Shown: piece by piece, positions 14,928 to 50,484 of the stretch
How the letters are laid out: each line of letters starts with the position of its first letter
How positions within the stretch are numbered: position 1 is the first letter of the stretch
Origin: Cucumibacter marinus DSM 18995
GTDB lineage: Bacteria > Pseudomonadota > Alphaproteobacteria > Rhizobiales > Devosiaceae
DNA: 64,000 nt
Assembly (NCBI RefSeq): GCF_000429865.1
Contig: NZ_AUCR01000010.1
Location: 135,166-199,165, forward strand
Direction of reading: 5' to 3'
Made by a program: the position numbers and the translations under genes
The notes under the pieces: generated by a model
The model's database searches: none
What the model was told of the DNA's origin: nothing
Seen by the model: the letters and a program-made list of their open reading frames with translations, nothing else

Positions 14928-14933
14928 AAAAGC

Positions 14934-22940: not shown

Positions 22941-22999
22941 TAACAATGATGCTGCGAATCTCGATAACTGGACACCTGGCACATGAGTGCCCGACACAA

Positions 23000-26587: not shown

Positions 26588-26620
26588 GCGCCGGGGCCCC
26601 GCCAGTGCTTGGCCATCCGG

Positions 26621-32040: not shown

Positions 32041-32166
32041 ACCAACTGAAATATATTGATTTTCAGTATCGGCCCTCCGAAGTCTCTATCCGAGAATACG
32101 CCTTGATTTCCGCCCGCGTGCTTGCGTGGTGCTTACTCGAAATCGGGGCTTCCGAGGGACGGGAGC

Positions 32167-33489
32167 ATGACCAAACTGACCAAAAGGTTTGTAGAGGCTG
32201 TCGAGCCGCAGAGCAAAGGTCACGTCGTCTGGGACGACGAATTGCCGGGCTTCGGTCTTCGCGTCTATCCCTCCGGAAAGCGCAGCTACATCGTCCAGTA
32301 TCGGTCTCGTGGCCGATCGCGCCGCTACACGATCGGCCTCCACGGCGTATGGGCGCCCGAGACTGCGCGCCGCGAAGCCAAGGCCCTGCTCGGACAGGTC
32401 GCTCATGGCGGCGATCCTGCTGAAAAACGCGAGGAAGATCGCAAGGCGCTGACCATCAAGCAGCTCTGCGAACAGTACATCGCCGACATGGAAGCTGGCC
32501 TCATCCTGGGAAAAGGCGGCCGGCCAAAGAAGGACACCACCATCGCCACCGATGTCGGCCGTATCCGCAGGCACATCATTCCCCTTCTCGGGACGCGAAG
32601 TGTGCGGGACATCACCAAGCCGGACATGAACAACCTGATGAAGGACATCATCGCCGGCAAGACACGCGTGACCATGAAGACCGAAAAGCTGCGCGGAAAG
32701 GCCATCGTGCGCGGCGGTCGCGGCACCGCGATCCGGACGATGGGCCTGCTCGGCGGCATCTTTTCATATGCCGTCGAGGCCGGAGTGATCGAGCACAATC
32801 CTACGCATGGCCTTCGCAAGCCGAAATACCAGGTCCGCGACCGTCGCCTCAGCGAAGCTGAGTACCGTACTTTGGGAGACATCCTTCGTCAGGCTCAGCA
32901 AAGCGACCGCTACAGGATACATGCCGAGATCCTTAGGCTAATTACGCTGAGCGGCTGCCGACGCGGAGAAATCGTCAACCTCAAATGGAGCGAGGTCGAT
33001 CTTGATGGTAGTTCCCTGCGATTAGTCGATAGCAAGGAAGGCTCTTCGGTCCGCCCGGTAGGCCTTCCAATCGTGGAATACCTGGAGAAGGAACGACCGC
33101 ACAGAACCGGAACGTACGTCTTTCCCGGCCAAGGCATCGACAACGCAGTCGGCAATTTCCCGCAGAGTTGGAAGAAGCTGTTCAAGGAAACCCCGCTGTG
33201 GGACGTGACGCCTCACGTACTGCGGCACAGTTTCGCGAGCATCGCCAACGACCTGGGCTTCACAGAGATCACGATCGCAGCATTGATCGGGCACGCGAAA
33301 GGTTCGGTGACGAGCAAGTACGTCCATACGCTCGACTCCACACTGATCATGGCTGCAGACACCGTGTCTGGCTACGTAAAAGCCCTGCTCGAAGGCGGCG
33401 AGTTCAGGCGGAACACCTACACGCTGGATCGCCAATCCCGCAAAAGCGCCATTGATCAAATGCTTAGAAATTCACGACCTGCGAGGTGA
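32167..33489 (+). CDS. int: P4-type tyrosine site-specific integrase
   Basis: A 440-residue tyrosine recombinase. Its N-terminus is the DUF4102 arm-binding module (GFGLRVYPSGKRSYIVQYRSRGRSRRYTIG), followed by a core-binding domain and the catalytic domain with Arg in SGCRRGEIVNLKW, the HxxR motif HVLRHSFAS, His in IGHA and the tyrosine in TSKYVHTLD. All catalytic residues are present, so the enzyme may still be active. The ATG at 32167 follows GACGGGAG. Adjacent to a tRNA-Arg 3' fragment, it marks the left end of the integrated element and points into it. Confidence 0.95.
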   Translation: MTKLTKRFVEAVEPQSKGHVVWDDELPGFGLRVYPSGKRSYIVQYRSRGRSRRYTIGLHGVWAPETARREAKALLGQVAHGGDPAEKREEDRKALTIKQLCEQYIADMEAGLILGKGGRPKKDTTIATDVGRIRRHIIPLLGTRSVRDITKPDMNNLMKDIIAGKTRVTMKTEKLRGKAIVRGGRGTAIRTMGLLGGIFSYAVEAGVIEHNPTHGLRKPKYQVRDRRLSEAEYRTLGDILRQAQQSDRYRIHAEILRLITLSGCRRGEIVNLKWSEVDLDGSSLRLVDSKEGSSVRPVGLPIVEYLEKERPHRTGTYVFPGQGIDNAVGNFPQSWKKLFKETPLWDVTPHVLRHSFASIANDLGFTEITIAALIGHAKGSVTSKYVHTLDSTLIMAADTVSGYVKALLEGGEFRRNTYTLDRQSRKSAIDQMLRNSRPAR

Positions 33490-33524: not shown

Positions 33525-34208
33525 TCACGCGATTGCGGCCTCATAATTGAAGGAGAAGACCTCCGCGAACTTTGGCGCCGCCAGATTCGGCAGTGCTTCA
33601 TGAATGTTGTAGAGACCGGTTTTCCCGGTAATAGGTTCTCCCTTTTGAAGCGGGAAGTTTCGCAGCGCGGGGAAGGGATCCCTTTGAAGCCAATCAAATA
33701 GCCTGCAAAGGCCGTTGCTCATTGCAGCAAGCCGAGACACACGCTCGTCGTCTGCAAAAAAATTCAATTGATTGCAGTCCGCATAGAGGATCAGCACCAC
33801 CTGATCTTGGGGGCCCAAGAATGGAATGGCGAGGTAGGACACTGGAATCTTGCTGAGATCACCTTTTTCGGTGTCGTGAAGGTCGGCGTGGAGCGCCTCC
33901 ACACTGTCGTAGTGGTGTGTGCGCCAGATCGTTCCCGAACCATAGGCGGCGCCCATGATACGATCGTTCACTGGAAAAAACCGGCCAACGGTACCATTCG
34001 CATTGACTCCGGATTCCTCAAGGTATGCGCAAACCTGCTGGAGATATCCATCCCCCTCACGACTCACTGCGCGATGCATCGTAATCCGAAGACCGGGAAC
34101 ATCGCCTTCTTCGCGGAGATAGCCGTCCACGGCTGCCAAGAAGGGCAAGACAGCCAGTTGGGAGGCAGGCGGCACCGGTTCGGGGTGCTTATAGAGATTT
34201 TCCGCCAT
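33525..34208 (-). CDS. GAF-like protein paired with an FAD oxidoreductase
   Basis: A 227-residue cytoplasmic protein. The pattern from about residue 35 to 190 (LRITMHRAV...GYLQQVCAYLEESG, IMGAAYGSGTIWRT, PVSYLAIPFLGPQDQVVLILYADCNQLNFFADDERVSRLAAM) looks like a GAF-type sensor fold, with a cysteine and aromatic residues that could line a pocket. The last 40 residues are helical. The ATG at 34208 has AAAAGGATC upstream and lies 14 bp after the FAD gene, so the two form an operon. Base composition is more AT-rich than the chromosome. No family assigned with certainty. Confidence 0.6.
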   Translation of the reverse strand: MAENLYKHPEPVPPASQLAVLPFLAAVDGYLREEGDVPGLRITMHRAVSREGDGYLQQVCAYLEESGVNANGTVGRFFPVNDRIMGAAYGSGTIWRTHHYDSVEALHADLHDTEKGDLSKIPVSYLAIPFLGPQDQVVLILYADCNQLNFFADDERVSRLAAMSNGLCRLFDWLQRDPFPALRNFPLQKGEPITGKTGLYNIHEALPNLAAPKFAEVFSFNYEAAIA

Positions 34209-34222
34209 GGTGAGATCCTTTT

Positions 34223-35959: not shown

Positions 35960-37924
35960 TTACAGACCTACCCATTCAACAAAATCAGATCTCCGCTTCT
36001 GCACCCTCATGAGCGCATCTTTCACGACCGAGGGCCGCTTCGACACGTTGATGACCAGTGTATCCATCGCTCGGGTCAGTGGGATCATCATCCATTGCGC
36101 GGCAAAAGCCGCCGCAAGATCATCCTTCGTTTCAAATAACCCGCCAAGATCCGGCGGCGATGCCAGCCATTGTTCGTATTTGTAATCATAGAAATCATCA
36201 AAGGCGTAGTTGATCACGGTCCAGCCTTCGAGCCCGCGGCAGGAGTCGTATTGCACGATCCGCAGAGCGTCGCGCTCCGTTGGATAAATTTCCCGGACGT
36301 CAGACGATGATGCGTCCCAAACGACGCCTCCGTTCTGGCGAATAGTCCGTCCCGGTATCGAGTAGGTATCTTCACCATCGCGGACCACCAACGATGGCGG
36401 AACGCACGCAAGTAGATCGACAGGGTAGTTTCCGAGTTCCGCGGCTTCCCCGAAAATCTGACTCAACAACGCAGTTTGACCGGACATGTCACCCTCAACG
36501 ATGATGACCCGTCCTCCATTGGCGTCTGGATTTGGTTCGAGGTCCCAGTTCTGAAGGCCGAGGGAATTAGCACAATCGGCTACGAAATGCGCGAGACTAG
36601 CCTTCATTCTCAGGCACCGCCGCAACCGGCGCGGCCGCATCTTTTCCCGTGCAAGTCCCGATGACCAATCCGCTACGGATGCCCGCACATACTGATCGAC
36701 TCCGTCGGCCACAACAATGCGTTCCGGTTGGTAGACTGCCCGCAAAATCTCGATTTCATTGGATGGCCAATCCTGCCCTTCATCGACGAAGATTGCGTCC
36801 CAGGCAAAATCATCGGCGTTATCCTGAAGGACGCTCTCAAGGTCATCACTGGAAAGCGCTCCGCTACGAATGTAGTCTAAGAGAGTTTCCTTGTGTTCCT
36901 CGTAGCGCTCCAAAAAGCTATCGTAAGTCTTGATGATGCCGAGTTCATGCATCAGGCGGCCGACGAACGCATGCACCGTTTCAATCCGAATGCCGCCTTT
37001 TTCGATCTGGTGAGGGACACCGAGCAGTGCCATCGTGCGTCTCATGTCGGCGACAAGTGCCTTGTTGTAGGTCAGCACGAGCGACCGCATCCGGTTACTG
37101 TCGTAAGCACGGTACGCCATCTGAAGAAGAATGACGGTCTTCCCAACGCCGCCTCTGCCACGGACTACGACTTGCCTATGTGTCAGATCATCGAGCCAGG
37201 CCTCGGGCAGTGCTGCCTTGACAATGCGATCCATGCGCCGCCGGTCGAGCGGCGTGGGCTCCATGGTCTGAAGCAAAGCGGTCTCTGACGAAAAGATTGA
37301 ATCGAAGACGTCCTCCGAGCCGAAGCTGAGCGTTACGCGGCGGTCGTTGTTAGCCGGAGACGACACTTGGCCCAAAATGTTGAGAATGCGTTCGAAGCTC
37401 GCATCGATGCCGAAACAGTTGTGCGGCCGATTAGGGAGGTCGGGCTCACGCAGTCCGGAAAAGAAAATCAGATCCTGGAGATAGATCTTCGGCACACCGT
37501 TCCGCGCAAGGTACTTCTTGAGTTCGAATAACTGCTGCCGGGCCTTCTCGGTCACGCACTCCCAGCCTCTGGGATACCTTACCGAAGCAACCTTGTCGTC
37601 GAACCTAACACCCGTCGCATCGTGTGATTTGGCCTCAATGACAAGGGCGAAGTTGCGCACCGAAGCGCGCCGCGGAACGAAAGGCTCGCCCTCGCGCGGA
37701 TAGAATTTGAACTCAATGTCAAACTCGCGTGGCTCAGAGAACTGCCCCACCACAAAAAGGTCGATGTCTTCGATCGGATGTCCGTAAAGCTTGAGGCCAA
37801 CGAAAATCTTCACATGATCGTCGGGGTGCTGGCTGAGGTCGGGCCAGACGGCAAGCAATTGCTTACGCAAATGCAGGGCTGCCTCGTATTCTTTCCCTTC
37901 GCCGACGCCAACCAGTTCTATCAT
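35960..37924 (-). CDS. NERD-like nuclease fused to a UvrD-type helicase
   Basis: A 654-residue protein. The N-terminal 130 residues carry a PD-(D/E)XK-like nuclease pattern: Asp53/Asp55 in IEDIDLFVVG and Glu97-Ala-Lys99 in ALVIEAKSHD, as in NERD domains. From residue 250 a superfamily 1 helicase follows with Walker A GRGGVGKT (256-263), Walker B IFVDEGQDW and the late motif YDSCRGLEGWTVI, ending in a region MMIPLTRAMDTLVI. It starts six bases after the giant helicase stop, so it is the last gene of the Druantia-like operon and a candidate DNA-degrading partner. Confidence 0.8.
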   Translation of the reverse strand: MIELVGVGEGKEYEAALHLRKQLLAVWPDLSQHPDDHVKIFVGLKLYGHPIEDIDLFVVGQFSEPREFDIEFKFYPREGEPFVPRRASVRNFALVIEAKSHDATGVRFDDKVASVRYPRGWECVTEKARQQLFELKKYLARNGVPKIYLQDLIFFSGLREPDLPNRPHNCFGIDASFERILNILGQVSSPANNDRRVTLSFGSEDVFDSIFSSETALLQTMEPTPLDRRRMDRIVKAALPEAWLDDLTHRQVVVRGRGGVGKTVILLQMAYRAYDSNRMRSLVLTYNKALVADMRRTMALLGVPHQIEKGGIRIETVHAFVGRLMHELGIIKTYDSFLERYEEHKETLLDYIRSGALSSDDLESVLQDNADDFAWDAIFVDEGQDWPSNEIEILRAVYQPERIVVADGVDQYVRASVADWSSGLAREKMRPRRLRRCLRMKASLAHFVADCANSLGLQNWDLEPNPDANGGRVIIVEGDMSGQTALLSQIFGEAAELGNYPVDLLACVPPSLVVRDGEDTYSIPGRTIRQNGGVVWDASSSDVREIYPTERDALRIVQYDSCRGLEGWTVINYAFDDFYDYKYEQWLASPPDLGGLFETKDDLAAAFAAQWMMIPLTRAMDTLVINVSKRPSVVKDALMRVQKRRSDFVEWVGL

Positions 37925-37929
37925 CTACT

Positions 37930-40900
37930 TCAACCGGTGATCTGCTGGTAGATGGTGCGCGTTGCCGTTGGAAGGTTACCCCGTATCACGAGTTCATTCT
38001 CGACAATCACCTGGTACTCAGTGCCGCTGTCGCGAAATTCAGCTATCGCCGGATCAGCGGGATGACCTGTCGTCAAAGGCCCCGAAAGCGCAATGACGAA
38101 CTTCCGACCTTTGCATTCAGCAAGAATTGGAGCCGTGACTGACTTTCCATTTCCATAGGCGATTTTTAGCCCAGCCTCGAATGTCGCCATCCCCTCGTCG
38201 CGCCGGAGGAGGTCGTTCAGCAACAAGGCTGTAGATCGCTTGAGGCGTTCAGCGCTGAATCCGGGATTCAGTCCTGTCAGCAGATATTCCAGCAGTTCAG
38301 CGCCCACATGCCTGTCGAGCAGGCGATGTTCGAACTTATTCTTGAAGCTCCGCAAACAGCGGTAGCACGAAGCGTCGCAGTCCTCGGGGCAGGTTTTCAG
38401 CAATTGGAGTGCGCGCTGGAACAGCTCAAGTCCGCGATCTGCAAACTGACTCGCAAAGCCCGCGCCGCCAGGAAGCGTGTCATAGAGAAAGATCTCTGCT
38501 TCCAACCCGCTTTTACCCGCAGGAGTGAGCGCAGGTCGATACTCGGCCATCAACTCGCCAGGCTCGATCTCCAGTATCTGGCATGCCGCCTTGGCAAGTG
38601 CTTCGCTGACAGTTCGCAGCGCGACATCCGTTGAATAGTGCCCCGGCTTCAGTTTGAGCGGTGCGGCCACGCGCATTGAGAACAGCGCGATGTCCGTAAT
38701 GAAATCGGTGCCAAGCACCAGGTGGCGTGTCGGTCCAATGCCATCACACATGAGTTTGTCATCATCATCCGGATACGGCTTGCGGTGAGGCGCCGCCAGG
38801 ATCGGCGATGGGGTGTTGCTCGCTTCTATTCGGCCGCATTTGACACAGTAGTTGTATCCTTCTTGCTGCGGACCCGTATTCGACACCAGGAGGTGTCGCC
38901 GGGTTTTCAGACTACGGATTCGCTCATTGGCTTCGGACCAGCCCTCATCGTCTCCCGGCGTTCCCATCGTCAACTTCGCTCGGGTGGCGTAGCTGGTTTC
39001 CGGAATTTCGTCGGGAGACGTCATCTCCTCGACGCCGATCGGGTGAGCGAACCCCGGCGGCCGCATCCAGTAGCGAGCGGGCCCAAATGTGTTTTCGCCA
39101 CCGCATGCCTCGCAATCAGTCGTGTCATTGCGGACGATTTCACCCGCTTCGAACGTCCTCGCGAAACCACAGTCGCTGCATTCCATGTAGAGACGTTTGC
39201 TCTCCCAAGCGTGGAAGCGGTCGTCCTTCATGACCGAATAGATGGCCCCCGAGGTGTAGCACTTGCCCGCAATCCAGACCTGTTTGTCCGGCGCATATTG
39301 GGAAAGCGCTATCGGCAAGCCCTGTGAGGGCGCGAATTTCATGATGTGCCTGTGGCGGGACGACCGGTCGCGGTCGAATACGTTGAAGGTCGCAACATCA
39401 GTCGGAAATGCGTATCGAGGGAGCTTCCCGCAGTAAAGGAGGCGGTCCAGCATCTTGCCGGGGCTGGAAGCCTGCTGCGGGTGTTCTTCTCCTTCCTCAG
39501 CTGCTTCTTCGTCACCTGCGGTATCGGCGTCGTCGTCATCCTCGGTCTCGTCCTCTTCACCGGGACCAGGGGCGATGGCCTCGCCCACAGCTTGAAGGCA
39601 ATCACTGACGAACTCACCTAGGAGAAGAGCCCGATCGTCTCCGGATAGTTGCTCAGGAATCCACCCGGCTATGCGGGTACGCAACGTCTCCTCATTGTCG
39701 GCGAGCCATGCCGCGAAGTCATCCCGATTCAAGAGCGAATCCGCCTTCCGAAAACCGGAGACACTTCCCAGAACAGAAAACAGGTCGTGTGGTTGGTCAG
39801 GGTCGATGATCGGAAGGCGATCCTGGTGATAGTTCTGCAGGAGGAACGCGCGGATGTGGCGGCGCACGATCTCAGGGTTGTCCAATGTCAGTTTCGGGTC
39901 GACGACATCACCCCGGATCATCTCGTCGGGCTGGGAGAAATAGTGCTCATCATGGGTGTCTGCGCTCCCAAACGCGACGACTGTGGCTACAGCATTGCCG
40001 CGGCGACCTGCACGGCCTGCCCGCTGCTGATAGTTAGCACGCCCAGGCGGCATGTTTCGCAGGGCCACGCCTGACAATGCTCCGAGGTCGATACCGACTT
40101 CCATAGTCGTCGTGCTGGACAAAATGTCGATTGCGGTGGAACGCCCTCCAAGACCGCTCCCACTCAGCGCGATATCCTGGAACAAGAGCTCATTTTCTTC
40201 TGCTTTGGAGAACACATCCTCGTTTTGCGGCGCGTTTAGCTGGGCAGTGTGTTCAGCGGCAATGAGAGCCATCGGCTGCCGCGGCGGGTCCTCAAGGGCC
40301 TGCGTAACCGGTTTGCGATAAAAACCTTTGCGCGCAAGAAAGACCGGGTCGGCATCTGGATCAAGGGCGGAGACGGTATCACTTCCGCAGTCAAGGCAGC
40401 TTTCAATGCCAGGGATAGGACGATGGACCGATTTGCAACTTGAGCAATGCATCCAGGCACCATCAAACTGGAGCGAAAGCTCGCTGCCGTTCAGGCACCG
40501 ATACCCACTCTCCACTGATTGCGTGAACCACTTGAGCAGTTCCGGCGACCAGCTATCCCAAAAGACCTTCCTGGCGGCCTTATCGTCGATGACGGATTCA
40601 ATTGCCTTGATCTTGGCTTTCGGGTTTCGCGGCTTGACCCGAAATCCTTCTGATGGCGGCCGATTGATCCAGGTGCCCGGCATCTGCGCAAGCCTGAAGC
40701 CGTTGTTGTTCCAGCACCGCAACCAGTAGCGCGCGATCGCAAGTTTGGCCTCATCGTTCTCAGCGAATCCCGGTATCGGCGGCAGGCCCAATATCTTCTT
40801 TGTGTGGCGATCGCTTTCTTTCAAAGTTGCGAGCGCCAGGGGTTCCATCCCCCAAAACCTGTCGGTCAAGGTCGTCAGCATGCTGCTAAGCAGCGACTCC

Positions 40901-43494
40901 GGCGGACGGTGAGCCCGAATTTCCAACAACAAGCTCAACAAGGTCGACGGATCTTCCAGTTCATCCTGGCGGACCGCCTCGTCTACAACTTCTTCAGCAT
41001 CAAAGTTTTCCCCGCCCCGCATTTCCGGACGCAGGCGCACGTTCAGGCGTTTGGACGCGAGCAACACACCAAAATAAAGGTCGTCAAGATTCAGGTGCGG
41101 GCGAATTGCATTCTGTTCCTTGAGCCAATTGAAGCCGCTGATGATCAGGGGGCGGAGAGAATCCCGTTCGGAATACATCTGCAGATTTGGTGCCAGACGA
41201 GCTGCCACCTGCCGGGAGTCCGAGAAGGCGAGCACTTTGCGGCCTCGCAGCGGAGCAAATGGTGTCGCTTCCTTTGGCCCAGGAGGCTGAATTTGAATTT
41301 GTCGGGCCAGTAACGCCTGAAAGGGCTGGTCGCCCTTGGTTTGATGGTCCTGCACGTAGCTTCGCCCAAAGCGTGCGGTCTTGCCGCAAACCGCACACGG
41401 AGTGAACTGGCCGCGCGACTCGAAACCGGTGTCGTTCTCATTCTCGTCGTCGGCCGTATCGGTGAGCCGATCCTGCCGGATGAAGACCGTTCGCATGCGC
41501 GGTCCGGGAGAGAGCGGATTCAGTTGTCCTGTTTCCAGATCGTAGTCGGCAGGTTCGGCGCCATCGTCGTGCGCCGGTTGCTCAAGAAGCAAATCGATAG
41601 GCAGCAACGGGCTCGTCTCGCCACTCGCCATGCGCAACTGCTCTCCCGGCTCGGACCAGAGAGCACGCGGTGAATCGACGTCGTCGGTATAGGCGCGAGC
41701 GTAGGCGGTTCCGCAGTTTCGGCAGGTGAACAGCTCGAGCACCCGGGCCCCGCAGCCGCATTCTTCTGACGGCTGTGAGCACATTTTTCCGCAGATGCCA
41801 TCACGTTGATCCTCGGAGAGCTCGCTGCAGCCCGGATCCATACAGACCCAAAGGCCAGGCAAGCCCCGAAAGAAGTTGTGTATGCGGCAGGGCAGCAGTC
41901 CGGGTAGATTCGGCTCCGGCCTCGCAACGCTTCCGAGCGCCATCAGGACAGTAACGGCTTCGTCGGCAGTTTTGGCCGGAACATCACCGGCAAACAGAAA
42001 AGTACCAAGCTCGGCGATGGGCCGGGCTTCCTTCATGGTCGCATTAATCAGTGCGCACATTGCAGGGAGCGATTTCAGCGCATCGAAGAGCCCACGTTCT
42101 GTCGATTCCGCACCCGTGACGCCTCGGTAGTCGAGCAATGGCGTGATCAATGCCAGCTTGGCATCGTCGGTATCCGCCTCGTAGAACGCATTCAGATCAA
42201 TCCCGGAAAGGGCTTCGGCGTCCTCCAACGTTCCCTTCCCAGCACCTTCCTTGAGATCGAGTGTGCCTTCGATTGGAACGAAGGTATCAGCCGGGATGCC
42301 GGAGAGCTGCGATCCAAACGCCGGGGCATAATCAGCATCTTTGAAACTCGCTGTCGCGCAGATAATCCGGAAACGGTCTTCCGGGACACCGATCCGGTCC
42401 CGCAACCGTCTTAGCAGCAATCCCACTTCTGCGCCGGCCGCACCGCGATAGAGGTGTGCTTCGTCGAGCACCACCAGAAAGGTCTCATCTGGGTTGTCAG
42501 CAAGCCACTCACGTGTCCTGTCAAAGATAGGTCGCTCGATTGGTCGCATGAGCATGTATTCGAGCATCGAATAGTTCGTGACGAGCAGGTCAGGCGGTGC
42601 GGCATGGACCTCGTGTCGCGTCAGAAGTTCGGAGTCGTCAGGTAGCGTAACTGCCCTGACGAACTCTCCCGTCTTCCGGTCTTGCCAGGCGCTGCCCTTT
42701 TGCCCGAACCAGGCTTCAAGATCGGGTTTTGCTGGCCATTTGCCGCGATCCTTCAAGGCGGTCAGCAACTCAACAGCCTGTGCCTTCTCTTCGGCATCTT
42801 CGCTCTCCGCACGCCTGAGCACGTCGACGTAGAAGCTGTCGAAGGATTGTAGTCGTGACGAATCCTTCTTCGACGTGCGAATGCCTGCATAAGGGGTCCG
42901 GCTTGTATATCGGGCAAATCGAGGTGGGCGGCCACACCACTCCTTGAAGGAACTGACGAGGCGCGGGTCGCCCAGCAAGGCGCGAAGTCGCCCCAACTGG
43001 TCGTTTACGAGCGCATTCATCGGGTACATGATCAGCGCCCGCATCGCGGGCTGCTCAGCGAAGACACTGGGACGCGTTTGCGCCTCCTGCGCAAACTTGC
43101 CCAGGATCGGAAGAAGGAATGATTCCGTCTTTCCCGAACCCGTCCCGGTCATGATGACCAGATTCTTTCCGTCGATGAGATTGTGACGAAGCGACTCAGC
43201 CTGGTGCTTGTACGGAGGATCGTAAATCAACCGCGGAAGGTCTTCGCTCGGAGAACTCAATCGTGAAAAGAGCGTCTGCGCGGCCGACGGCAGTCCGACC
43301 ATTGAGCCGAATGTATCGCCCGTTTGGTATTTAGGCGTCGATTCGAGATAAGGGACGCGATGAATGATGCCGTCACGTTCAAGAAGGTGTTGCCGCTGCG
43401 CAATCAACGACGGGGCACTTATGTGGTATGTCGCCTCGATATAGTCACTCAGCGAGCCGTGCAGGTTTTCTATAGTTTCTTTAATTGTCTGCAT
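37930..43494 (-). CDS. druE: DruE-like giant DEAH helicase with DUF1998 domain
   Basis: An 1854-residue superfamily 2 helicase. Walker A is GTGSGKTES (about residues 116-124), Walker B VVLDEAHLYRG, motif III-like ICATASF and motif VI NYQQRAGRAGRRGN. Between and after the helicase lobes are several zinc-ribbon-like CxxC clusters (for example CRNCGTAY, CSSCKSVH, CSDCGFAR). The C-terminus has the DUF1998 signature LYDTLPGGAGFA with CDASCYRCLRSFKN. Size and layout match DruE, the common component of Druantia antiphage systems. The ATG at 43494 has a strong GGGAGGGGGG site; an ATG at 43524 overlaps the previous stop. Confidence 0.82.
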   Translation of the reverse strand: MQTIKETIENLHGSLSDYIEATYHISAPSLIAQRQHLLERDGIIHRVPYLESTPKYQTGDTFGSMVGLPSAAQTLFSRLSSPSEDLPRLIYDPPYKHQAESLRHNLIDGKNLVIMTGTGSGKTESFLLPILGKFAQEAQTRPSVFAEQPAMRALIMYPMNALVNDQLGRLRALLGDPRLVSSFKEWCGRPPRFARYTSRTPYAGIRTSKKDSSRLQSFDSFYVDVLRRAESEDAEEKAQAVELLTALKDRGKWPAKPDLEAWFGQKGSAWQDRKTGEFVRAVTLPDDSELLTRHEVHAAPPDLLVTNYSMLEYMLMRPIERPIFDRTREWLADNPDETFLVVLDEAHLYRGAAGAEVGLLLRRLRDRIGVPEDRFRIICATASFKDADYAPAFGSQLSGIPADTFVPIEGTLDLKEGAGKGTLEDAEALSGIDLNAFYEADTDDAKLALITPLLDYRGVTGAESTERGLFDALKSLPAMCALINATMKEARPIAELGTFLFAGDVPAKTADEAVTVLMALGSVARPEPNLPGLLPCRIHNFFRGLPGLWVCMDPGCSELSEDQRDGICGKMCSQPSEECGCGARVLELFTCRNCGTAYARAYTDDVDSPRALWSEPGEQLRMASGETSPLLPIDLLLEQPAHDDGAEPADYDLETGQLNPLSPGPRMRTVFIRQDRLTDTADDENENDTGFESRGQFTPCAVCGKTARFGRSYVQDHQTKGDQPFQALLARQIQIQPPGPKEATPFAPLRGRKVLAFSDSRQVAARLAPNLQMYSERDSLRPLIISGFNWLKEQNAIRPHLNLDDLYFGVLLASKRLNVRLRPEMRGGENFDAEEVVDEAVRQDELEDPSTLLSLLLEIRAHRPPESLLSSMLTTLTDRFWGMEPLALATLKESDRHTKKILGLPPIPGFAENDEAKLAIARYWLRCWNNNGFRLAQMPGTWINRPPSEGFRVKPRNPKAKIKAIESVIDDKAARKVFWDSWSPELLKWFTQSVESGYRCLNGSELSLQFDGAWMHCSSCKSVHRPIPGIESCLDCGSDTVSALDPDADPVFLARKGFYRKPVTQALEDPPRQPMALIAAEHTAQLNAPQNEDVFSKAEENELLFQDIALSGSGLGGRSTAIDILSSTTTMEVGIDLGALSGVALRNMPPGRANYQQRAGRAGRRGNAVATVVAFGSADTHDEHYFSQPDEMIRGDVVDPKLTLDNPEIVRRHIRAFLLQNYHQDRLPIIDPDQPHDLFSVLGSVSGFRKADSLLNRDDFAAWLADNEETLRTRIAGWIPEQLSGDDRALLLGEFVSDCLQAVGEAIAPGPGEEDETEDDDDADTAGDEEAAEEGEEHPQQASSPGKMLDRLLYCGKLPRYAFPTDVATFNVFDRDRSSRHRHIMKFAPSQGLPIALSQYAPDKQVWIAGKCYTSGAIYSVMKDDRFHAWESKRLYMECSDCGFARTFEAGEIVRNDTTDCEACGGENTFGPARYWMRPPGFAHPIGVEEMTSPDEIPETSYATRAKLTMGTPGDDEGWSEANERIRSLKTRRHLLVSNTGPQQEGYNYCVKCGRIEASNTPSPILAAPHRKPYPDDDDKLMCDGIGPTRHLVLGTDFITDIALFSMRVAAPLKLKPGHYSTDVALRTVSEALAKAACQILEIEPGELMAEYRPALTPAGKSGLEAEIFLYDTLPGGAGFASQFADRGLELFQRALQLLKTCPEDCDASCYRCLRSFKNKFEHRLLDRHVGAELLEYLLTGLNPGFSAERLKRSTALLLNDLLRRDEGMATFEAGLKIAYGNGKSVTAPILAECKGRKFVIALSGPLTTGHPADPAIAEFRDSGTEYQVIVENELVIRGNLPTATRTIYQQITG

Positions 43495-43516
43495 ACTTGT
43501 CCCCCCTCCCGCATTC

Positions 43517-44593
43517 TTACGCATCCGTTGACACCAGCCACAAGTTTTCCTGAAGGTTTTTTTCTTCTTCAGCAGCCTCTGCCACGGGAATCTCGTACGC
43601 GAACAAACTGCGGCTACGTGGACGTTCGTGACCGAGAACCATCAATCGGCGCTGCGCCCAGAGTGGCAACGGCGAAAAGAAATCGAAACGGACACCGGCA
43701 TCTGTAGCGCTGCGCCTGTATTGCTGCGGATGTCCCGCGATGCGGTCAATCGCCATCTGTAAGTGCCACGCGGCATCGCATCCGCGCCAACGAAAGTGCC
43801 TGGGAGGCAAGTCGACGATCCGCTTCAACGTGCCATCGACGAGTTCTGCGAAGCTCCAGAGCGGCGCGCCGAACTCCTGCGGCCGGCGTGCGACAAATGT
43901 ACCGGTCTGCCCACGCGGTGCGCCCCATCGCCCGCGATAGTAGGTCACCTTGGTATCTCGATCGAGGATCTCGAGACCGGATACCGGTCCGCATGTCGGC
44001 TGAGAGGCCAGTTGATTTTCGAAACGTTGGATCAACTGTTCAGGGGTCTGCGCCTTGGGCGATCGGAGCCACACGGACTCAGACAACTGATGCAGTCCGT
44101 GCGCGATCAACTGCTCGATCAGATCCTCGCCAGGCTCGGGTGCGATAAACTGCGTCACGTGGGAGCGGACCACGCGCCGCGCCAGGTGTTCCGGCAACAA
44201 GATGTCCTGATCGGGAGCGATTCCGGTCAAGAAGATGCTTCCGGTACGGCGAACCACAAAAGATGGCGGCGCCGCAAAAACCCAGGTTCCTTTGGCGTCT
44301 GGGTCATCGGTCGCGACATCGGATAGCTCTAGCAAGTCACCGGCGACGATCATGGCCTCGGTAAGATTGTCCAGCCGATCGGCGAGTGCTCCGAAGACCG
44401 GCTGCAAGTATGCAAGGCTTTCCATGAGGGCAGCGCGAAGCGCGGTCCTTGAACATGGACAGTGTATCCCTGCTGCACGTCGCAGGAGGCCCGCCAACAG
44501 AATGTCGTCAAGCCCAGAAGACTCGATCCCGATGCCAAGCGACGTACGGCAGCAGCCCAAAACCTCATCCGGAGTGAGTTCAGTGATCGTCAT
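43517..44593 (-). CDS. Unrecognised Druantia-cluster protein (358 aa)
   Basis: A cytoplasmic protein with no familiar domain. Residues 1-20 (ITELTPDEVLGCCRTSLGIG) and 95-180 are helical; the centre has VFAAPPSFVVRRTGSIFLTGI and the phrase VTYYRGRWGAPRGQTGTFVARRPQ; the C-terminus (FFSPLPLWAQRRLMVLG) is hydrophobic-basic. The ATG at 44593 overlaps the stop of the 953-residue gene (ATGA) and its own stop overlaps or nearly touches the helicase start, so it is translated with both. By position it corresponds to the DruC/DruD slot of Druantia type I, but I cannot show homology. Confidence 0.7.
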   Translation of the reverse strand: MTITELTPDEVLGCCRTSLGIGIESSGLDDILLAGLLRRAAGIHCPCSRTALRAALMESLAYLQPVFGALADRLDNLTEAMIVAGDLLELSDVATDDPDAKGTWVFAAPPSFVVRRTGSIFLTGIAPDQDILLPEHLARRVVRSHVTQFIAPEPGEDLIEQLIAHGLHQLSESVWLRSPKAQTPEQLIQRFENQLASQPTCGPVSGLEILDRDTKVTYYRGRWGAPRGQTGTFVARRPQEFGAPLWSFAELVDGTLKRIVDLPPRHFRWRGCDAAWHLQMAIDRIAGHPQQYRRSATDAGVRFDFFSPLPLWAQRRLMVLGHERPRSRSLFAYEIPVAEAAEEEKNLQENLWLVSTDA

Positions 44594-47451
44594 TCCCACC
44601 TCGGCAGCAACTCTATGGGCCCATTTTCCACGCACGCATGGCTGAGCGCGACGATCCGGGCGCCGCGCAGCAACAGAGGTTTCGCCAGAATGCGTTTGAG
44701 AAGGTCCGGCAGCCTGTCACGGTAGAGGCGCGGCACCTCGTGCGGACGGCTGGCTATCTCGACTGCCAGGGAGCAAAGCGCTTGGTCGGAACAAACGCCA
44801 TAGCGTGCGGCCAAATCGGCATACCAGCCCACAATCGCCTTCCTTCCACCTTCGATGCTCAGGGCATCACGACGCAGCACGGACGGAAAACCTCCCCTGT
44901 GATCAAGCAACGATTGCAGATGATCGAGACCCTTTTCACGATCGCTGCTTCGCATGAAAGCGGCCTCGGCTCGGCCCCAATCTCGACCGGCCAAGGCCCC
45001 ATAAAGGCGAGTGGTCAGGCCAACCACGACCTGGCCCCGCCGTGCGTTGGCAAGGAAGCCCGCAAGCCGCGCTGACCTCCAATAGCGCAATATCCTCATA
45101 TGCTTGATGATGGATTTGGGGCTGTCGGCAATACTGGCGTAGACAGGATGAACACCCAAGCCCTCCAGGCCGCTACCGGACAGCCCGGTGCTGACGATCA
45201 CCAAGTCCCGGAACTTGCCGTGTTGGACGATATACAGCCCGCCTGGCGACTGGACATCGAACCCCGCAAGGGCTTCTCCAGCATCGAGGCGCTCGATCCT
45301 GGTTGGTGTCTCCATGTTGAAAAAGCGGCATTTCGGTTCCGCGTCTTCTTGCCCTGTATCGTCGACAAGCCGAAGCGCAATGGCTTCGCCTTGATGACGC
45401 AAGACCCAGCGGACCGGTAGCGCATCGTGGTCGAACCGGACGACGAACCGCCCAAGTTCCTGCCCCTCGATTGTGAGAAGGCCGGAAGCGGCCTCAAGGT
45501 ATCGCCACTCCGCGTGTTGCTGCTGCAGGAATTCCTGGAACCGCCTTTCCCAAATTTCTGGAAGAATCGGCAGGTCGACTGGTGGGCAGACCTGGGCGCT
45601 GTAGATCTCCTCGCCCTTGGCATCCTCAAGGCTCACATGCGGGGTAACCTGACGACCTTCGGGACCGAAAACCGTTAGGTCCAACTGATTCTCCCAAAAC
45701 ACGTCCAGCGTGGCGTCATGCGGATTGCTATTGACCACAAGGCCTACATGCGAGGTCGCTCCGGGTATCCATGGCTCAGGCTCACGTATTCTGAGTTCCA
45801 GGAAACCTTCATTTGAGGGCGGTGCTGTGGTTTCATCCAGAGCCGCACTTCGGTGCGCTTTGACGTTGAGGCGATATGTCCCGGCCGCCAATTGCGGTAG
45901 TTGAATGAAGGTTGGCTGTCCCGGCTTTCCGGCCGGAAAGGTAGCGGTCGCGACATCACCGAGCGTGACCCGGTAGGAGTCCACGGGATGATCGGGAACG
46001 ATCCCGAAACACGGTTTTTCGGTCGTCAGCCATTCGCTTCGCCCTTCTCCATCCCAGTTCCGGCCGGGCAAACCGGCAGGCCAGACACGGATGGTTCTGG
46101 CAAGTTCGAGATTTCGTATCCGCAGCCATTGAATATATGCGGCGGTCACATCGGAAGGCACCGAAACTCGGATGGCGCGGATATCGCTGCATTCGATGGC
46201 GCAGCCTGTCATGCCTTCTTGCAGGTCTTCGAATTCATCGGGTGACGCCAAGATGTAATCATTACCGGGACGCATCAGGCGGCTGGCAATCTCGCGGGCG
46301 ATGCCGTCGGCGCCAATGCGGAAGAGCCAGATCGGACCCGGGCTAATCCGGCATTCGCTCTCAAGAAGATGATCGACGATTCCGTTGGAGGACTCAAAAC
46401 TGACCAGCGGTCTGGATGGGTCAGGCCATGCTTTGAGAACCGCACGGCGGTTACCGGACAGGACCCAGCCGGCCGGCCGTCTGACATCATCGCCATTTAA
46501 CTTCGAACGGGTTCGCCGAAGAAACTGCTGGATCTCCGGGTTGAGAGCGGCAATTGGCTTGAAATTGGGAACGTCGATCACGAGCGTCCAACGCCCGTCG
46601 CCGGCATATCGCAAGCGCAGATCGGGCCGAACATCGGGCCTGGCTTCCCGCAGCCTTCGCTCGACGGAATCCAGGCCGTCTCCGAAAGATCGAGGCGCCG
46701 CACCCCGACCGATGCCCTTGAAGCGGTCAGCCACAACGCGACTTGCCTCTCTGAGCCAACCGCGGGCGTGACGCATCTGCTCAAGATCGGCGACGATCCG
46801 ATCGAGCGTAGCGGGCAGAAGCGGCTCTTCACCTTCACGTGGATCTTGGTGGAGAAGCGCAAGGACGATACGGCCGACCAGTTCCTCTTGCTGAAGAAAC
46901 TGCTCGAAACGTGTCGACGCGTAATAGACATTACTCGCGATCAAACGGCCAATTACCGCAGGCTCGATCGTCGTCAGCCGCGCGAGCGTGAAGCGCAAGT
47001 CATATAATGTCCGGGCAAATTGCTGCTGCAAATAGCGGGGCAAAACGGCATGGGTAATCGGCCAGGCGATTATGCTGAAATGCGACGCCCACGGTCCGGA
47101 AGGAACTACGCCATTGTAGGTTGAATGGAATTTCGAGAACCAAGCCGTAACCCGGTACCGGTCTCGGGAATCCCAGCCGGGTGTGACATCTTCGAAAGAC
47201 TGCCAATATTCACCGCCTTCATAGGTGTATCCTCTCTCTGCTGCGTAGATTGTCCAGAGCAACCAGTGTGGCGCTAGTCTCAGTCCGGTGTTCAGGCGCG
47301 CCCGTAGCTGTTCGGCAATTTCCTCCAGTTCACCATCATCAAGACCGTGCTCCAGAGCAAAAAGAGGAAAGCCGGACGCCGCGCGACGCTCTGCAAGCGC
47401 CGCAAAATGCCGCTCCATTCGCTCCTGCCATTGGTCCAAAGGCACAGCCAT
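44590..47451 (-). CDS. Unrecognised large Druantia-cluster protein (953 aa)
   Basis: A cytoplasmic protein. The N-terminal 270 residues are a conserved-looking helical block (PHWLLWTIYAAERGYTYEG, EYWQSFEDVTPGW, GPWASHFSIIAWPITHAVLP, STRFEQFLQQEELVGRIV) that I associate with large unnamed proteins in genomic islands. The middle (about 430-600) is beta-rich, including an Ig-like stretch. The C-terminus is helical again. No catalytic motif is evident. Located six bases after druA and overlapping the next gene by four, it takes the DruB position; a structural or DNA-clamping role would fit, but this is inference. The ATG at 47451 is preferred to a TTG at 47457. Confidence 0.7.
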   Translation of the reverse strand: MAVPLDQWQERMERHFAALAERRAASGFPLFALEHGLDDGELEEIAEQLRARLNTGLRLAPHWLLWTIYAAERGYTYEGGEYWQSFEDVTPGWDSRDRYRVTAWFSKFHSTYNGVVPSGPWASHFSIIAWPITHAVLPRYLQQQFARTLYDLRFTLARLTTIEPAVIGRLIASNVYYASTRFEQFLQQEELVGRIVLALLHQDPREGEEPLLPATLDRIVADLEQMRHARGWLREASRVVADRFKGIGRGAAPRSFGDGLDSVERRLREARPDVRPDLRLRYAGDGRWTLVIDVPNFKPIAALNPEIQQFLRRTRSKLNGDDVRRPAGWVLSGNRRAVLKAWPDPSRPLVSFESSNGIVDHLLESECRISPGPIWLFRIGADGIAREIASRLMRPGNDYILASPDEFEDLQEGMTGCAIECSDIRAIRVSVPSDVTAAYIQWLRIRNLELARTIRVWPAGLPGRNWDGEGRSEWLTTEKPCFGIVPDHPVDSYRVTLGDVATATFPAGKPGQPTFIQLPQLAAGTYRLNVKAHRSAALDETTAPPSNEGFLELRIREPEPWIPGATSHVGLVVNSNPHDATLDVFWENQLDLTVFGPEGRQVTPHVSLEDAKGEEIYSAQVCPPVDLPILPEIWERRFQEFLQQQHAEWRYLEAASGLLTIEGQELGRFVVRFDHDALPVRWVLRHQGEAIALRLVDDTGQEDAEPKCRFFNMETPTRIERLDAGEALAGFDVQSPGGLYIVQHGKFRDLVIVSTGLSGSGLEGLGVHPVYASIADSPKSIIKHMRILRYWRSARLAGFLANARRGQVVVGLTTRLYGALAGRDWGRAEAAFMRSSDREKGLDHLQSLLDHRGGFPSVLRRDALSIEGGRKAIVGWYADLAARYGVCSDQALCSLAVEIASRPHEVPRLYRDRLPDLLKRILAKPLLLRGARIVALSHACVENGPIELLPRWE

Positions 47452-47457
47452 GGCCAA

Positions 47458-48690
47458 CTATGACCCTGAGGCCATGTCCTTGAGCAGATCTGAGCACTTT
47501 AACTGGTTGCGCAGCATACGGGTCTGATTTCCGAAGAGATCGATGAGGTCACTCGAATCCCAGTCCTTGAACTCAGGCCTGCGCTTGGCGCGAGGCACCA
47601 TCCACCGCTCGAGCGCCAGTTCAGATATTTCTTTGGCCGAAAGGAGTTCTCCGACGTCAGGCGTCCCCTTGCCGGTGTGCAATATCTTGGCTGCGTTCTT
47701 GGCGAGTTCACAAATGAAGACCTCGCGCTGAATTCCGTGTCGCAACATGTCCTCTTTGAAACCGAGCGCCGAAAGTGCTGCCCTTGTCGTTCGCAAACGC
47801 CAGTTTGGTCCTTGGCCAAAACGGTGCTGGTCTGCATAGGTATGGTCGATATCGCGTAGATAATCGCGCAAATCCGCAAATAACCGATCCGGTATGTGAA
47901 AATGTCCCCATCCACCCGTATAGCCGATAGATTTCAGATACTGTTGACCCCCGAGCTTGAGGCGATTGTAGACCGACGATCGCCCCATTGAAGACGATGT
48001 GGTAACAGCGAGCAGACGCGCTTTTTTCTCCTCTTTCGAGATTATTCCGGTGGAACCGCCATAGGTGCGCGCAAAATCGTCATATAAATCGCGGCTTCGA
48101 AGCAGGCAGGCTACAAGTTTCCCGCCCAGCAATTCGTTGTAGGGGGGGATGGCTCCAAGAACGTAGGCATCCATCACGTTGACGAGGCGGGCACTTCTGT
48201 CATGGGTATCCCAACCAATGAGTTTGTCCCTCACCGCGAGGTTGAAGACCGGATCTCCGATGGCAATGAGGCCCATGAGCTTGCCATTGTTTTCATCCCA
48301 GACGAGATACCGCAGCCGCCTGCCGAAGCCATTTGAAACTGGAACCGACCATGTCAGCGATGCGAGGCGAAACAGATCACCTTGCGGAGTCCCCGCTGAT
48401 ACACGTTCGAGTACCGGCGAAATTCTATCGGGATCAATTTCCTTGCCAGAAGCAAAATGCCTCAACAGCTTCTCGGCCTTGGCTGCAATGAAGTCGCGGT
48501 TTAGATGGAGCCGCTCTTGCCGCTGCGCGCGGTGTAGCGTGCGAACAATGTCCTTTCCGGACCCTTGAATGCGAAGCGCACCTTCTTCAGACTTCTCGAA
48601 ACCTAGTGCATGCAGATGTCGGCGCAGTTTTCGTTTAATGTGGGCTTCACGAGAAGCAATGCTAACGACATTTCCTTTGCTTATTGACAT
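47458..48690 (-). CDS. druA: DruA-like protein, DUF4338 domain
   Basis: A 410-residue protein with an N-terminal basic helical part and the DUF4338 core: FGRRLRYLVWDENNGKLMGLIAIGDPVFNLAVRDKLIGW followed by MDAYVLGAIPPYNELLGGKLVACLL and YGGSTGIISKEEKKARLLAVTTSSSMGRSSVYNRL. DUF4338 is the marker of DruA in Druantia type I and also occurs near transposon-type recombinases. Here it leads a same-strand operon ending in a DruE-like helicase, which supports the defence reading. The GNAT-like middle suggests binding rather than a known reaction. Confidence 0.85.
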   Translation of the reverse strand: MSISKGNVVSIASREAHIKRKLRRHLHALGFEKSEEGALRIQGSGKDIVRTLHRAQRQERLHLNRDFIAAKAEKLLRHFASGKEIDPDRISPVLERVSAGTPQGDLFRLASLTWSVPVSNGFGRRLRYLVWDENNGKLMGLIAIGDPVFNLAVRDKLIGWDTHDRSARLVNVMDAYVLGAIPPYNELLGGKLVACLLRSRDLYDDFARTYGGSTGIISKEEKKARLLAVTTSSSMGRSSVYNRLKLGGQQYLKSIGYTGGWGHFHIPDRLFADLRDYLRDIDHTYADQHRFGQGPNWRLRTTRAALSALGFKEDMLRHGIQREVFICELAKNAAKILHTGKGTPDVGELLSAKEISELALERWMVPRAKRRPEFKDWDSSDLIDLFGNQTRMLRNQLKCSDLLKDMASGS

Positions 48691-48748: not shown

Positions 48749-49618
48749 TCAAGAAATCAGTTTTCTAGCCCGCGAAGCATGCGGCAAGAGGAAGATGGCA
48801 AGGTCTTCAACGACCGCCGATAAATCTACTGCATTGAAGTCTACATCCTCAACGAAAGCTCGCCACTGCTTTTGCTTCTGTGCATCGGTCGCAAATTCCA
48901 GCGTAAGGGCATCCGGCAACTCAGTCGGGATCACCGTTTCGCGTCGCGCAAAGGTCGCTGCAATCGCGCGGGCGAGCCTATCATCATTAAAGGTGAACGA
49001 CCGGCTGAGAAGCCAGATGTCGTAGAAGTCCTTCATCCGGCTGTTGGCCCGGCCCAGCGCCACCATCGCCTGGAATTTCTCGGCGATGACCGTCTCCCGC
49101 GCATAGGCGCGCAGTCTCGGCGCGGGGAGATCGAGCATGACCGGGTAGTCGACGACTTCCGCCCCAGGTTCCAGCGCATCGCCAAAGCCGATGTCGATCG
49201 TGAGGTTGATCCGGGCGCCGCCGACCGAAGCGATCGCACGCAGCCGGAGACCCCCATAGTCGAGCTCCTCGCGAATGCGATCGACACGCAGCGTGTCCGG
49301 ATCGAACACGACGCCGTCTTCGGCGTCCTGAGCGAGGATGTCCCGGAATGTCGCCAGCATCGCGGCTTCGCTCGGGTCGCCGAAACCCAGCAGATCGAGA
49401 TCGCGCGTCCCGCGGTGCGGATCGTCGAACCAGCTCATCATCAGCATGGCCCCTTTCAGCACGAAGCGCTCGGCATGGGGTGACTGGCTGAGCCGGAACA
49501 GGAGGCGCTCCAGCGCGAAGCGCGTGAGCACCAGATCGAAGCTCTGTCCGCTCGCCTTGGAGAGGTTGAGGAGCCGGGCGCGCACCGAGGCGCCGATATT
49601 CCTGATCTCCTTAGCCAT
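48749..49618 (-). CDS. AbiEii/AbiGii family nucleotidyltransferase toxin
   Basis: A 289-residue type IV toxin of the nucleotidyltransferase fold. The family motif FVLKGAMLMMSWF followed by RGTRDLDLLGFG gives the metal-binding Asp pair, and downstream segments LRVDRIREELDYGGLRLRAIA and ARETVIAEKFQAMVALG with MKDFYDIWLL are typical. Relatives block growth by transferring nucleotides to GTP-binding or tRNA targets when phage infection disturbs the antitoxin. It overlaps the antitoxin gene by eight bases. It lies directly downstream of its antitoxin, beside the Druantia-like operon. Confidence 0.9.
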   Translation of the reverse strand: MAKEIRNIGASVRARLLNLSKASGQSFDLVLTRFALERLLFRLSQSPHAERFVLKGAMLMMSWFDDPHRGTRDLDLLGFGDPSEAAMLATFRDILAQDAEDGVVFDPDTLRVDRIREELDYGGLRLRAIASVGGARINLTIDIGFGDALEPGAEVVDYPVMLDLPAPRLRAYARETVIAEKFQAMVALGRANSRMKDFYDIWLLSRSFTFNDDRLARAIAATFARRETVIPTELPDALTLEFATDAQKQKQWRAFVEDVDFNAVDLSAVVEDLAIFLLPHASRARKLIS

Positions 49619-50228
49619 TGGCGGTCAGCGCCTCCAGATAGGGGCGGATCACCGTGCCGACCCCGCCTGTATCCGCCGCCCTCGCGATCTCTGCCGGCGT
49701 GGCCTTTCGTTGGCGCAGAGCCTCTTGCAGACCTTCGAGCGCGACGGCGAGACCGATCTTGCCGCGATGGCGGAAGCAGTCCGCGACGGTCTTTGCCACG
49801 CTGAACACCTTTACCGACACGCCTTCGATCACATGGGTTTCGACGCTGTCGGCAAGCAGGTCGTCCGAGAATCGCAGCACGCGGATCGGCATGTCGCTCG
49901 GCTTCGGCGTCCAGTCGTTCCGGCCGATCGCCATCCACACCTTCTTGGGGAGCTGATCCGTGATTCCATGAAAGGCGAGCGCCGAAACGAGGCAGATCAC
50001 GCCCTTGGGGAAACGCTTGGCCGCCTCGGCAAGGCTGTGGTTTGCGTCGAGTTCTGCGTCGGCAAGCTGATAGAGCCCGCGCGCCAGTCGGATGACCTCG
50101 CCATCCTTCTCCATGCGGCTGACGGTTGCGGCGGTCACGCCGGTATCCCTCAGTTCCGCAAGGCGCAGAATCCCACGGGCCGCGAGGAGATCGCGGGCTA
50201 TCTCGCGCTGGGACCGGGTCCGGGGCAT
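49611..50228 (-). CDS. AbiEi family type IV antitoxin
   Basis: A 205-residue protein with an N-terminal winged helix (SQREIARDLLAARGILRLAELRDTGVTAATVSRMEKDGEVIRLARGLYQL) and the C-terminal antitoxin domain (VICLVSALAFHGIT, SVKVFSVAKTVADCFRHRGKIGLAVALEGL). Such antitoxins repress their own promoter by binding inverted repeats and neutralise the toxin indirectly. The ATG at 50228 is preferred to one at 50258 because the latter sits in the inverted repeat at 50231-50275. Confidence 0.9.
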   Translation of the reverse strand: MPRTRSQREIARDLLAARGILRLAELRDTGVTAATVSRMEKDGEVIRLARGLYQLADAELDANHSLAEAAKRFPKGVICLVSALAFHGITDQLPKKVWMAIGRNDWTPKPSDMPIRVLRFSDDLLADSVETHVIEGVSVKVFSVAKTVADCFRHRGKIGLAVALEGLQEALRQRKATPAEIARAADTGGVGTVIRPYLEALTANG

Positions 50229-50230
50229 AG

Positions 50231-50275
50231 ATACATACTCTCGCACTTCAATATCCATAGTGTGAGGATTTGTAT
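50231..50275. promoter_or_regulatory. Inverted-repeat operator of the AbiE operon
   Basis: Two 17-bp arms, 50231-50247 (ATACATACTCTCGCACT) and 50259-50275 (AGTGTGAGGATTTGTAT), match at 13 of 17 positions as an inverted repeat around 11 bp. It lies immediately before the AbiEi start, where these antitoxins bind their own promoter. Confidence 0.65.
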
Positions 50276-50484
50276 CATATGGAGCAGTAAAGGAAAAGAC
50301 CAACGAGGTTGTTGGATCGGCTGATTGGAAGCCACCGTGCCGCTGATTGGAAGCGTATGAACCGCGACGTGGAAAGCCCGGGAGGGGAAAGCCTTCCCCT
50401 GCGGCCGAGCCTGTCGTCTCGACCGACCCCTTCTGCGGGGACACCCCGCAACGCCCCGAGAGTGAGAGTGCGGACCGGTTTGCC

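Follow-up and report, generated by a model that had tools for sequence, protein, structure and literature searches.

A candidate Druantia subtype in Cucumibacter marinus with one large protein in the place of DruB and DruC and an optional nuclease-helicase

Druantia type I is reportedly made up of druABCDE, as given by Doron and colleagues in 2018, and a gene cluster of Cucumibacter marinus DSM 18995 that opens with druA and carries a druE-like helicase gene in fourth position raises the question of whether it is such a system, a variant of it or a subtype of its own. The stretch of DNA analysed (the window, 64,000 nucleotides (nt), positions 135,166 to 199,165 of NZ_AUCR01000010.1) is part of contig 7 in a 3.7 Mb assembly of 22 contigs. 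A preliminary description, made from the letters of the window, had proposed a five-gene minus-strand operon, and all five open reading frames (ORFs) were recovered with the same coordinates and lengths, running from 48690 to 35960 in the order druA-X-druD-druE-N:

47458..48690, minus strand: druA, 410 amino acids (aa), DUF4338 (Pfam PF14236 and PADLOC PDLC00002)
44590..47451, minus strand: gene X, 953 aa from its ATG, matched by no family model, in the druB-druC place
43517..44593, minus strand: druD variant, 358 aa (PADLOC DruD1, PDLC00010)
37930..43494, minus strand: druE, 1854 aa from its ATG, YprA-family SF2 helicase with MrfA Zn-binding domain
35960..37924, minus strand: gene N, 654 aa, NERD-type PD-(D/E)xK nuclease and SF1/UvrD-like helicase, accessory

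The spacings are 6 nt between druA and X, a 4-nt overlap (ATGA) between X and druD, 22 nt between druD and druE and 5 nt between druE and N; an alternative druE start at 43524 gives an overlap of druD and druE instead of the 22-nt gap. With a probability of roughly 60%, the cluster represents a new Druantia subtype with a core of DruA, X, DruD and DruE and an optional nuclease-helicase N, in which X would act as the sensor, DruE would unwind DNA and N would degrade it.

Gene content and distribution of the cluster

Profile searches with the DruA to DruE models, for which the P. putida pKF715A plasmid system (five genes, each matching a PADLOC model) and the chromosomal druABCDE of E. coli E62 served as type I references, placed three of the five genes as type I, with the PADLOC labels DruA1, DruD1 and DruE1 on genes 1, 3 and 4 of the cluster. 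DruA was matched by Pfam PF14236 (expectation value (E) 2.3e-83) and by the DruA1 model (E 5.8e-215) and is 73% identical to the DruA of the canonical P. putida system; its best match among PDB sequences had E 0.87. The large helicase gave 2038.9 bits with DruE1, over residues 11-1862, against 627 bits for the best DruE2, 549 for the best DruE3 and 47 for the best DrmA model, which rules out a DISARM or MrfA helicase; DEAD, Helicase_C and, near the C-terminus, MZB (MrfA Zn-binding) domains were detected in this single chain, which is 32% identical to the P. putida DruE and has the large helicases 9tu7 and 9wae and YprA (6znp) as solved relatives by sequence. The proposal of DruA in first and a DruE-like helicase in fourth position was thus borne out.

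Regarding the space between these two genes, the preliminary description had counted two genes in place of druB to druD, both of which are present; the 358-aa gene, however, is a DruD1 (PDLC00010, E 1.1e-133; PDLC00012, E 5e-117), so that a single unmodelled gene, X, stands in the DruB-DruC place. The canonical P. putida DruD fits PDLC00009 best and is 24% identical to the window DruD over 273 residues (E 0.005). PDLC00010 and PDLC00012 fit the window protein far better, which suggests that loci of this kind were already among the type I sequences used to train the PADLOC models, with X left unmodelled. The AlphaFold2 model of DruD had a mean predicted local distance difference test score (pLDDT) of 90.2, and no Foldseek row was obtained at E 0.001; the best VIA-align rows were mostly winged-helix proteins (Z up to 7.7, below the telling level of the tool), and a DNA-binding role of DruD is only a guess from this model.

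None of the five genes matched DruB1 or DruC1, which gave 762 and 902 bits, respectively, with the P. putida references, and X matched no PADLOC, NCBIfam or Pfam family. The proposal of a variant or new subtype therefore stands in that the cluster is distinct, with DruB and DruC missing and a DruE1 helicase present, but its defining new part is X, which had not been singled out before.

A scan of 84,980 species genomes with a DruD alignment yielded 40 loci, which together with one IMG/VR contig and plasmids of N. watsonii and Sinorhizobium make up 43 distinct relatives (L050, on the same contig as L002, was left out), from Alpha-, Beta- and Gammaproteobacteria, Acidobacteriota, Myxococcota, Armatimonadota and Gemmatimonadota. 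X was detected in 41 of the 42 testable relatives, L041 being the one without it and L023 being cut by a contig end, and it lies directly beside druD (gap of at most 18 nt) in 40 of these 41, the exception having an IS21 element in between. The arrangement A-X-D-E-N was also found in G708, a further genome of the window's class. A quick DruE tree was built from the window, the relatives with a DruE longer than 1700 aa (35 of the 42 that have any), the two canonical proteins, L052 and one type III DruE; it was drawn with a midpoint root, and its deep branches are long and of unsure order. The window and the 35 relatives fall into a single group of this tree (36 rows, Shimodaira-Hasegawa-like approximate likelihood ratio test 99), and canonical DruE lies outside it, at the end of a long branch.

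Gene X as a candidate sensor

The X alignment comprised the window and 31 of the 41 relatives, hand-picked, with partial copies and near repeats dropped, and the AlphaFold2 model from these 32 sequences (mean pLDDT 81.9, predicted template modelling score (pTM) 0.43) predicts a helical part (about 1-270), an alpha/beta and beta-sandwich part (277-755) and a second helical part (778-940). Residues 451-562 match Ig-like domains (Z up to 8.9, root mean square deviation (rmsd) 3.2 over 95 residues). No whole-protein match to X was found with Foldseek, the query template modelling score (TM) being at most 0.12 among the matches listed; the top row was a yeast TRAPPII subunit (E 5.5e-7, but TM 0.09 and rmsd 52), and the other rows among the matches listed were mostly Ig/FN3-type chains. 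Similarity of the model to phage T5-like tail-tip/baseplate proteins (E near 1e-3) may possibly be the same Ig-like match. The best match of X among PDB sequences had E 0.16.

In Druantia type III, DruH has been proposed as a sensor with Ig-like domains and is described as more divergent than DruE (PMC13192584). Profile comparison with hhalign brought the N-termini of X and DruH into register, with X 14-225 aligned to DruH 15-270 (E 1e-3) and X 14-73 to DruH 15-76 (E 3.9e-4); the scores of 31.8 and 34.5 compare with at most 22.2 in 150 column shuffles and with a best of 23.4 over 23 real windows taken from DruE, N, DruD and the remainder of X. These E values were reached after several tries: a single DruH sequence had given E 0.76 at first, a four-row DruH profile E 0.064, and a ten-row profile E 0.076 with X alone, 6.4e-4 with three X relatives added and 0.8 with the same set in global mode. 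The trimmed full-length comparison (E 0.0094) was weaker than that of the N-termini, the C-termini gave E 0.0086, a value that has no shuffle control beside it, and a reversed control in this series gave E 0.4. The resemblance of X to DruH in predicted layout and N-terminal profile is thus suggestive, not proven, and makes X a candidate DruH-like sensor.

Over the 16 loci in which X, D, E and N are all complete, X and DruD diverge faster (mean identity 0.46 and 0.47) than DruE and N (0.69 and 0.65). Among 398 genomes of the phylum, with at most two candidates scored per genome, X matched in three, one of which (G635) is DISARM-like, and a scan of viral contigs with X alone found nothing. More distant relatives of X occur in other surroundings, namely on a plasmid of Azospirillum ramasamyi (L053, hhalign 99.8%), where the gene adjoins DrmA and GajB-like UvrD helicases, in genome G635 (L085, profile E 1.8e-27), where DrmA, DrmB, a GajB-like UvrD helicase and a NERD-UvrD gene stand beside it, and in Leisingera (L052), where a DruE/NERD locus lies 3 kb away. 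The last of these, a further Druantia-like locus (8970-27009, on a plasmid of Leisingera sp. S132), holds a long DruA-type protein of 659 aa, a 2094-aa DruE1-type, a NERD-UvrD and a 333-aa protein, with an SNF2 helicase and the X relative on the other strand. The DISARM-like loci L085 (1-16367) and L053 (1-11847), the former with a DrmD/BrxHI-like SNF2 helicase in addition, are a possible new DISARM variant; their X relatives were assigned to no family.

The nuclease-helicase N, DruA and the flanking genes

The protein N was matched weakly by the PADLOC NERD+UvrD model C3a187 (E 6.5e-8) and by Pfam AAA_19 (E 7.8e-6), and nothing was found for it among PDB sequences at E 0.001. The residues D55, E97 and K99, which from knowledge of the fold are presumably the catalytic residues of the nuclease, and the Walker A and B motifs are invariant in the alignment of all 17 intact copies, window included. 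Profile comparison relates N to the NERD-UvrD proteins of L085 (hhalign 95.9%) and L052 (90.8%).

Among the 43 relatives, 38 of which were testable for N, the gene is intact (at least 640 aa) in 16, shorter in 6 and absent from 16. The shorter copies of L009, L012, L020 and L037 are broken inside the contig, that of L010 is cut by the contig and that of L036 ends 49 bases from a contig end. The broken sites lie at 20263-21612 (L009), 16708-16962 (L012), 16749-17762 (L020) and 16643-17728 (L037); X, DruD and DruE are still open in L012, L020 and L037, and L009 carries insertion sequence (IS) insertions, and its DruE is broken. Every one of the 22 relatives with at least part of N has the gene after druE on the same strand, at a distance of -4 to 81 nt; 21 of these have named hosts, all alphaproteobacteria, and the other is a viral contig, which was the one and same contig found in the viral-contig scans with DruD and with N. 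With partial or broken copies scored as N, the presence of N on the DruE tree required 4 changes, compared with a mean of 13.4 for shuffled labels, none of 500 shuffles being as low. Pairwise identities of N follow those of DruE over the 16 complete loci (r 0.982, with 0.978 for X and 0.985 for DruD). With at most three candidates scored per genome, N was found in 2 of 385 genomes of the class, both among the 5 with a DruD match, and the second copy lies directly after DruE.

The gene N is a true partner of the system, because of its position after druE, its tracking of DruE and its occurrence in class genomes only together with DruD, and it is not core, because 16 of the 38 testable relatives lack it and at least four more have a broken copy. 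The expectation that the nuclease-helicase is no chance neighbour was hence upheld; the 654-aa gene is present, at least in part, in 22 of 38 testable relatives. That N supplies DNA degradation, as had been proposed, is plausible, because the DruE of type I is reported to carry an inactivated C-terminal Vsr nuclease (PMC12458937) and no conserved ExK-like position was seen in the C-terminal region of DruE in the alignment, inspected by eye.

Regarding DruA, a protein of at least 60% identity is encoded directly upstream of X in 27 of the 43 relatives; 9 have only a distant DruA (29-42%) nearby, in six of these downstream on the opposite strand, 4 have none in the stretch covered and 3 are cut by a contig end. 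The canonical DruA of E. coli and P. putida is nested among the X-type DruA, adjoining that of N. watsonii (support 97 in a quick tree; 92/96 in a careful tree, within a group of 15 at 97/95), and forcing the 24 X-type rows together without canonical DruA was rejected (approximately unbiased test, p-AU 0.031) for a group that was named after the tree had been seen. The short L034 and L037 were left out of both trees and eight distant DruA also out of the second. DruA has apparently moved between backgrounds, because canonical DruA falls inside the X-type DruA while the DruE groups stay apart. The nesting of canonical DruA (of L051/L055) despite helicases that are 32% identical means that DruA identity alone cannot diagnose the Druantia type.

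The cluster is flanked in the window by the following genes:

32122..33489, plus strand: tyrosine integrase (Pfam PF00589, E 5e-17)
33525-35557, minus strand: LmuA-like gene and 247-aa gene, a pair between N and the integrase
48749..50444, minus strand: abiEii and abiEi, a toxin-antitoxin pair (PADLOC and Pfam)

In Aquibium (L011), the 14.5 kb that span AbiEi to N are 94% identical to the window, and an integrase region of 90% identity begins 62 bp after N, where the window has the LmuA-like and 247-aa genes; the window integrase is 96% identical to the one directly beside the same cluster in L011. The cluster probably moves as cargo of an integrase element, because L011 shares both cluster and integrase region. 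The abiEii and abiEi genes are 95% and 88% identical between the two genomes. They lie upstream of druA in the same orientation, with 58 nt in between, an arrangement also present in L011, so the AbiE pair and the Druantia cluster may share a transcript. The LmuA-like protein (444 aa; PADLOC PDLC03858, E 5e-64; Pfam DAO, E 3e-4) has a possible FAD-binding motif, and its 247-aa partner matched no model. Both have relatives close to the system in L009 (54% and 53%, the first spread over two frames) and in L045 (48% and 50%), where they sit between DruD and DruE, and the pair may be a separate two-gene defence module. In an all-against-all comparison of the flanking ORFs, no other family recurred in more than six loci; one family, mostly of 510-665 aa, is present in the flanks of L037, L039, L042, L043, L044 and L045 and stands directly downstream of N in L043 (18769-20307) and L044 (18748-20331).

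Interpretation and comparison with known systems

In the proposed subtype, X would be an infection sensor or scaffold, as proposed for the DruH of Druantia III, and once triggered would license DruE, which would load on phage replication intermediates containing single-stranded DNA (ssDNA), as reported for type III DruE, and would have no active nuclease of its own. Where present, in alphaproteobacterial hosts among the named loci, N would degrade the exposed DNA with its predicted PD-(D/E)xK nuclease on an SF1 helicase, DruD could be a DNA-binding adaptor and DruA would be an exchangeable module. A more far-reaching version, which is tentative and somewhat less probable than its negation, would have X as a highly diverged DruH-type sensor and the subtype as a hybrid of Druantia I (DruA, DruD, DruE1) and III, with X-family sensors plugged repeatedly into YprA-helicase systems (here, in L053 and in L085), sometimes together with NERD/UvrD proteins, as a sensor, translocase and degrader, and with the DruA of canonical type I derived from this lineage.

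Several points weigh against these readings. The anti-phage role is predicted from the gene content, and no phage assay of any member was found. The pTM of X leaves its domain packing unsure, the link between X and DruH is weak (hhalign E from 4e-4 to 0.8 across profile versions, probability never above 36%), X and its relatives were not called DruH by PADLOC (DruH3), NCBIfam (YjiT) or Pfam, and DruD evolves as fast as X, so that quick divergence singles out no sensor. The DruD of this group and canonical DruD gave an hhalign probability of 21%, so its identity rests mainly on the PADLOC label, and most relatives were found via DruD, which makes the linkage of X and DruD conditional on that query. 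Regarding N, it is missing from the alphaproteobacterial loci L035 and L041, it does not form one lineage on the DruE tree, where at least 3 changes are forced, its genome search was limited to three candidates per genome with E of at most 1e-20, and of the five DruD matches, one (G300) is a weak fragment that contains a stop.

That the cluster is an ordinary Druantia type I, in which DruB and DruC were fused and diverged into the 953-aa protein, would agree with the position of X exactly in the druB-druC place, the close identity of DruA to its canonical counterpart and the type I labels on DruA, DruD and DruE, but this is very unlikely: with E values of up to 10 allowed, X still matched neither DruB1 nor DruC1, and its profile resembled neither of the two canonical proteins (as DruB, DruC or a fusion of both, hhalign probability 0.8% and 0.0%, respectively, against two-sequence profiles), its 953 aa compare with 558 and 625 aa for the P. 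putida DruB and DruC, and relatives of X stand beside DrmA helicases, in L085 without DruA or DruD by tblastn. The fixed place of N on the same strand after druE in 22 of 22 holders, down to a DruE identity of about 60%, the divergence of N in step with DruE and the fact that no N was seen in a genome without DruD among the 385 class genomes make it improbable that the NERD-UvrD protein is an independent defence gene lying beside the system by chance in related elements, even though N is absent or broken in many relatives, L012 keeps an open A-X-D-E with an N cut down to 84 aa, and defence genes cluster in islands. A role that is not primarily anti-phage, in plasmid or mobile-element competition or in DNA repair, would suit a cluster that lies beside an integrase and on plasmids and whose helicase family has one DNA-repair related branch (PMC12458937); set against the DruE1 score of 2039 bits and the AbiE and LmuA-like genes that adjoin the cluster in the window, it too is unlikely.

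Current models name three genes of the cluster type I and miss X, the gene that sets it apart. A sister system without DruB and DruC and with one large sensor-like protein would allow comparative tests of what DruA, DruD and DruE do; the dedicated nuclease N is naturally present in some versions and missing from others, so that these can be compared as well. In the open-licence literature, no Druantia was found described with such a gene set or a NERD-UvrD gene, and no published mechanism was found for type I Druantia.

Compared with Druantia type I, listed as druABCDE (PMC13316683), the cluster has DruA first, DruD directly before DruE, a YprA helicase of the DruE1 type and an apparently inactive C-terminal nuclease in common, but it has X instead of DruB and DruC, a DruE that is 32% identical and often an additional NERD-UvrD gene; it is not filed as type I because the defining DruB and DruC were not found. 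The Druantia-defining DruE, a YprA-family helicase described as common to all known types (PMC13192584), is present nearly at full length with the DruE1 model. Regarding types II and IV (gene lists in PMC8565338 and PMC13316683), the PADLOC matches of the five genes (taken for DruE from the best 25 of 31 rows) included no DruM, DruF or DruG and no DruF or DruL, respectively.

TALON, a system of YprA helicase and NERD nuclease described from Chloroflexota (PMC12458937), likewise combines both in one operon, but its TPR-CSD and TBP genes are not among the five genes, the NERD domain here shares one chain with a UvrD-like helicase, and the YprA protein belongs to the DruE1 type. DISARM has DrmA and a separate DrmB, whereas the cluster has a single-chain DruE, and no DrmB was among the PADLOC matches listed for the five genes (again the best 25 of 31 for DruE). 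The loci L085 and L053 share with the cluster an X-type gene, there beside DrmA and a GajB-like UvrD helicase, and L085 also a NERD-UvrD gene, but in place of DruE they have DrmA together with a separate gene, DrmB in L085 and, by annotation, a DUF1998 gene in L053; the tblastn search for DruA and DruD covered the 16-kb contig of L085, and L053 was not searched for them. Type III consists of DruH and DruE alone (PMC13192584, PMC13316683), with a DruE that has a predicted active PLD nuclease and is reported as a dimeric helicase loading on 3' ssDNA (PMC13192584). The likeness of the cluster to it is a large Ig-like/helical partner encoded upstream of DruE, with weak N-terminal profile similarity of X to DruH; the differences are the presence of DruA and DruD, an X that DruH models do not recognise and a DruE that scores 2039 bits with DruE1 against 549 with the best DruE3. 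If the proposed reading is correct, the subtype would link Druantia types I and III.

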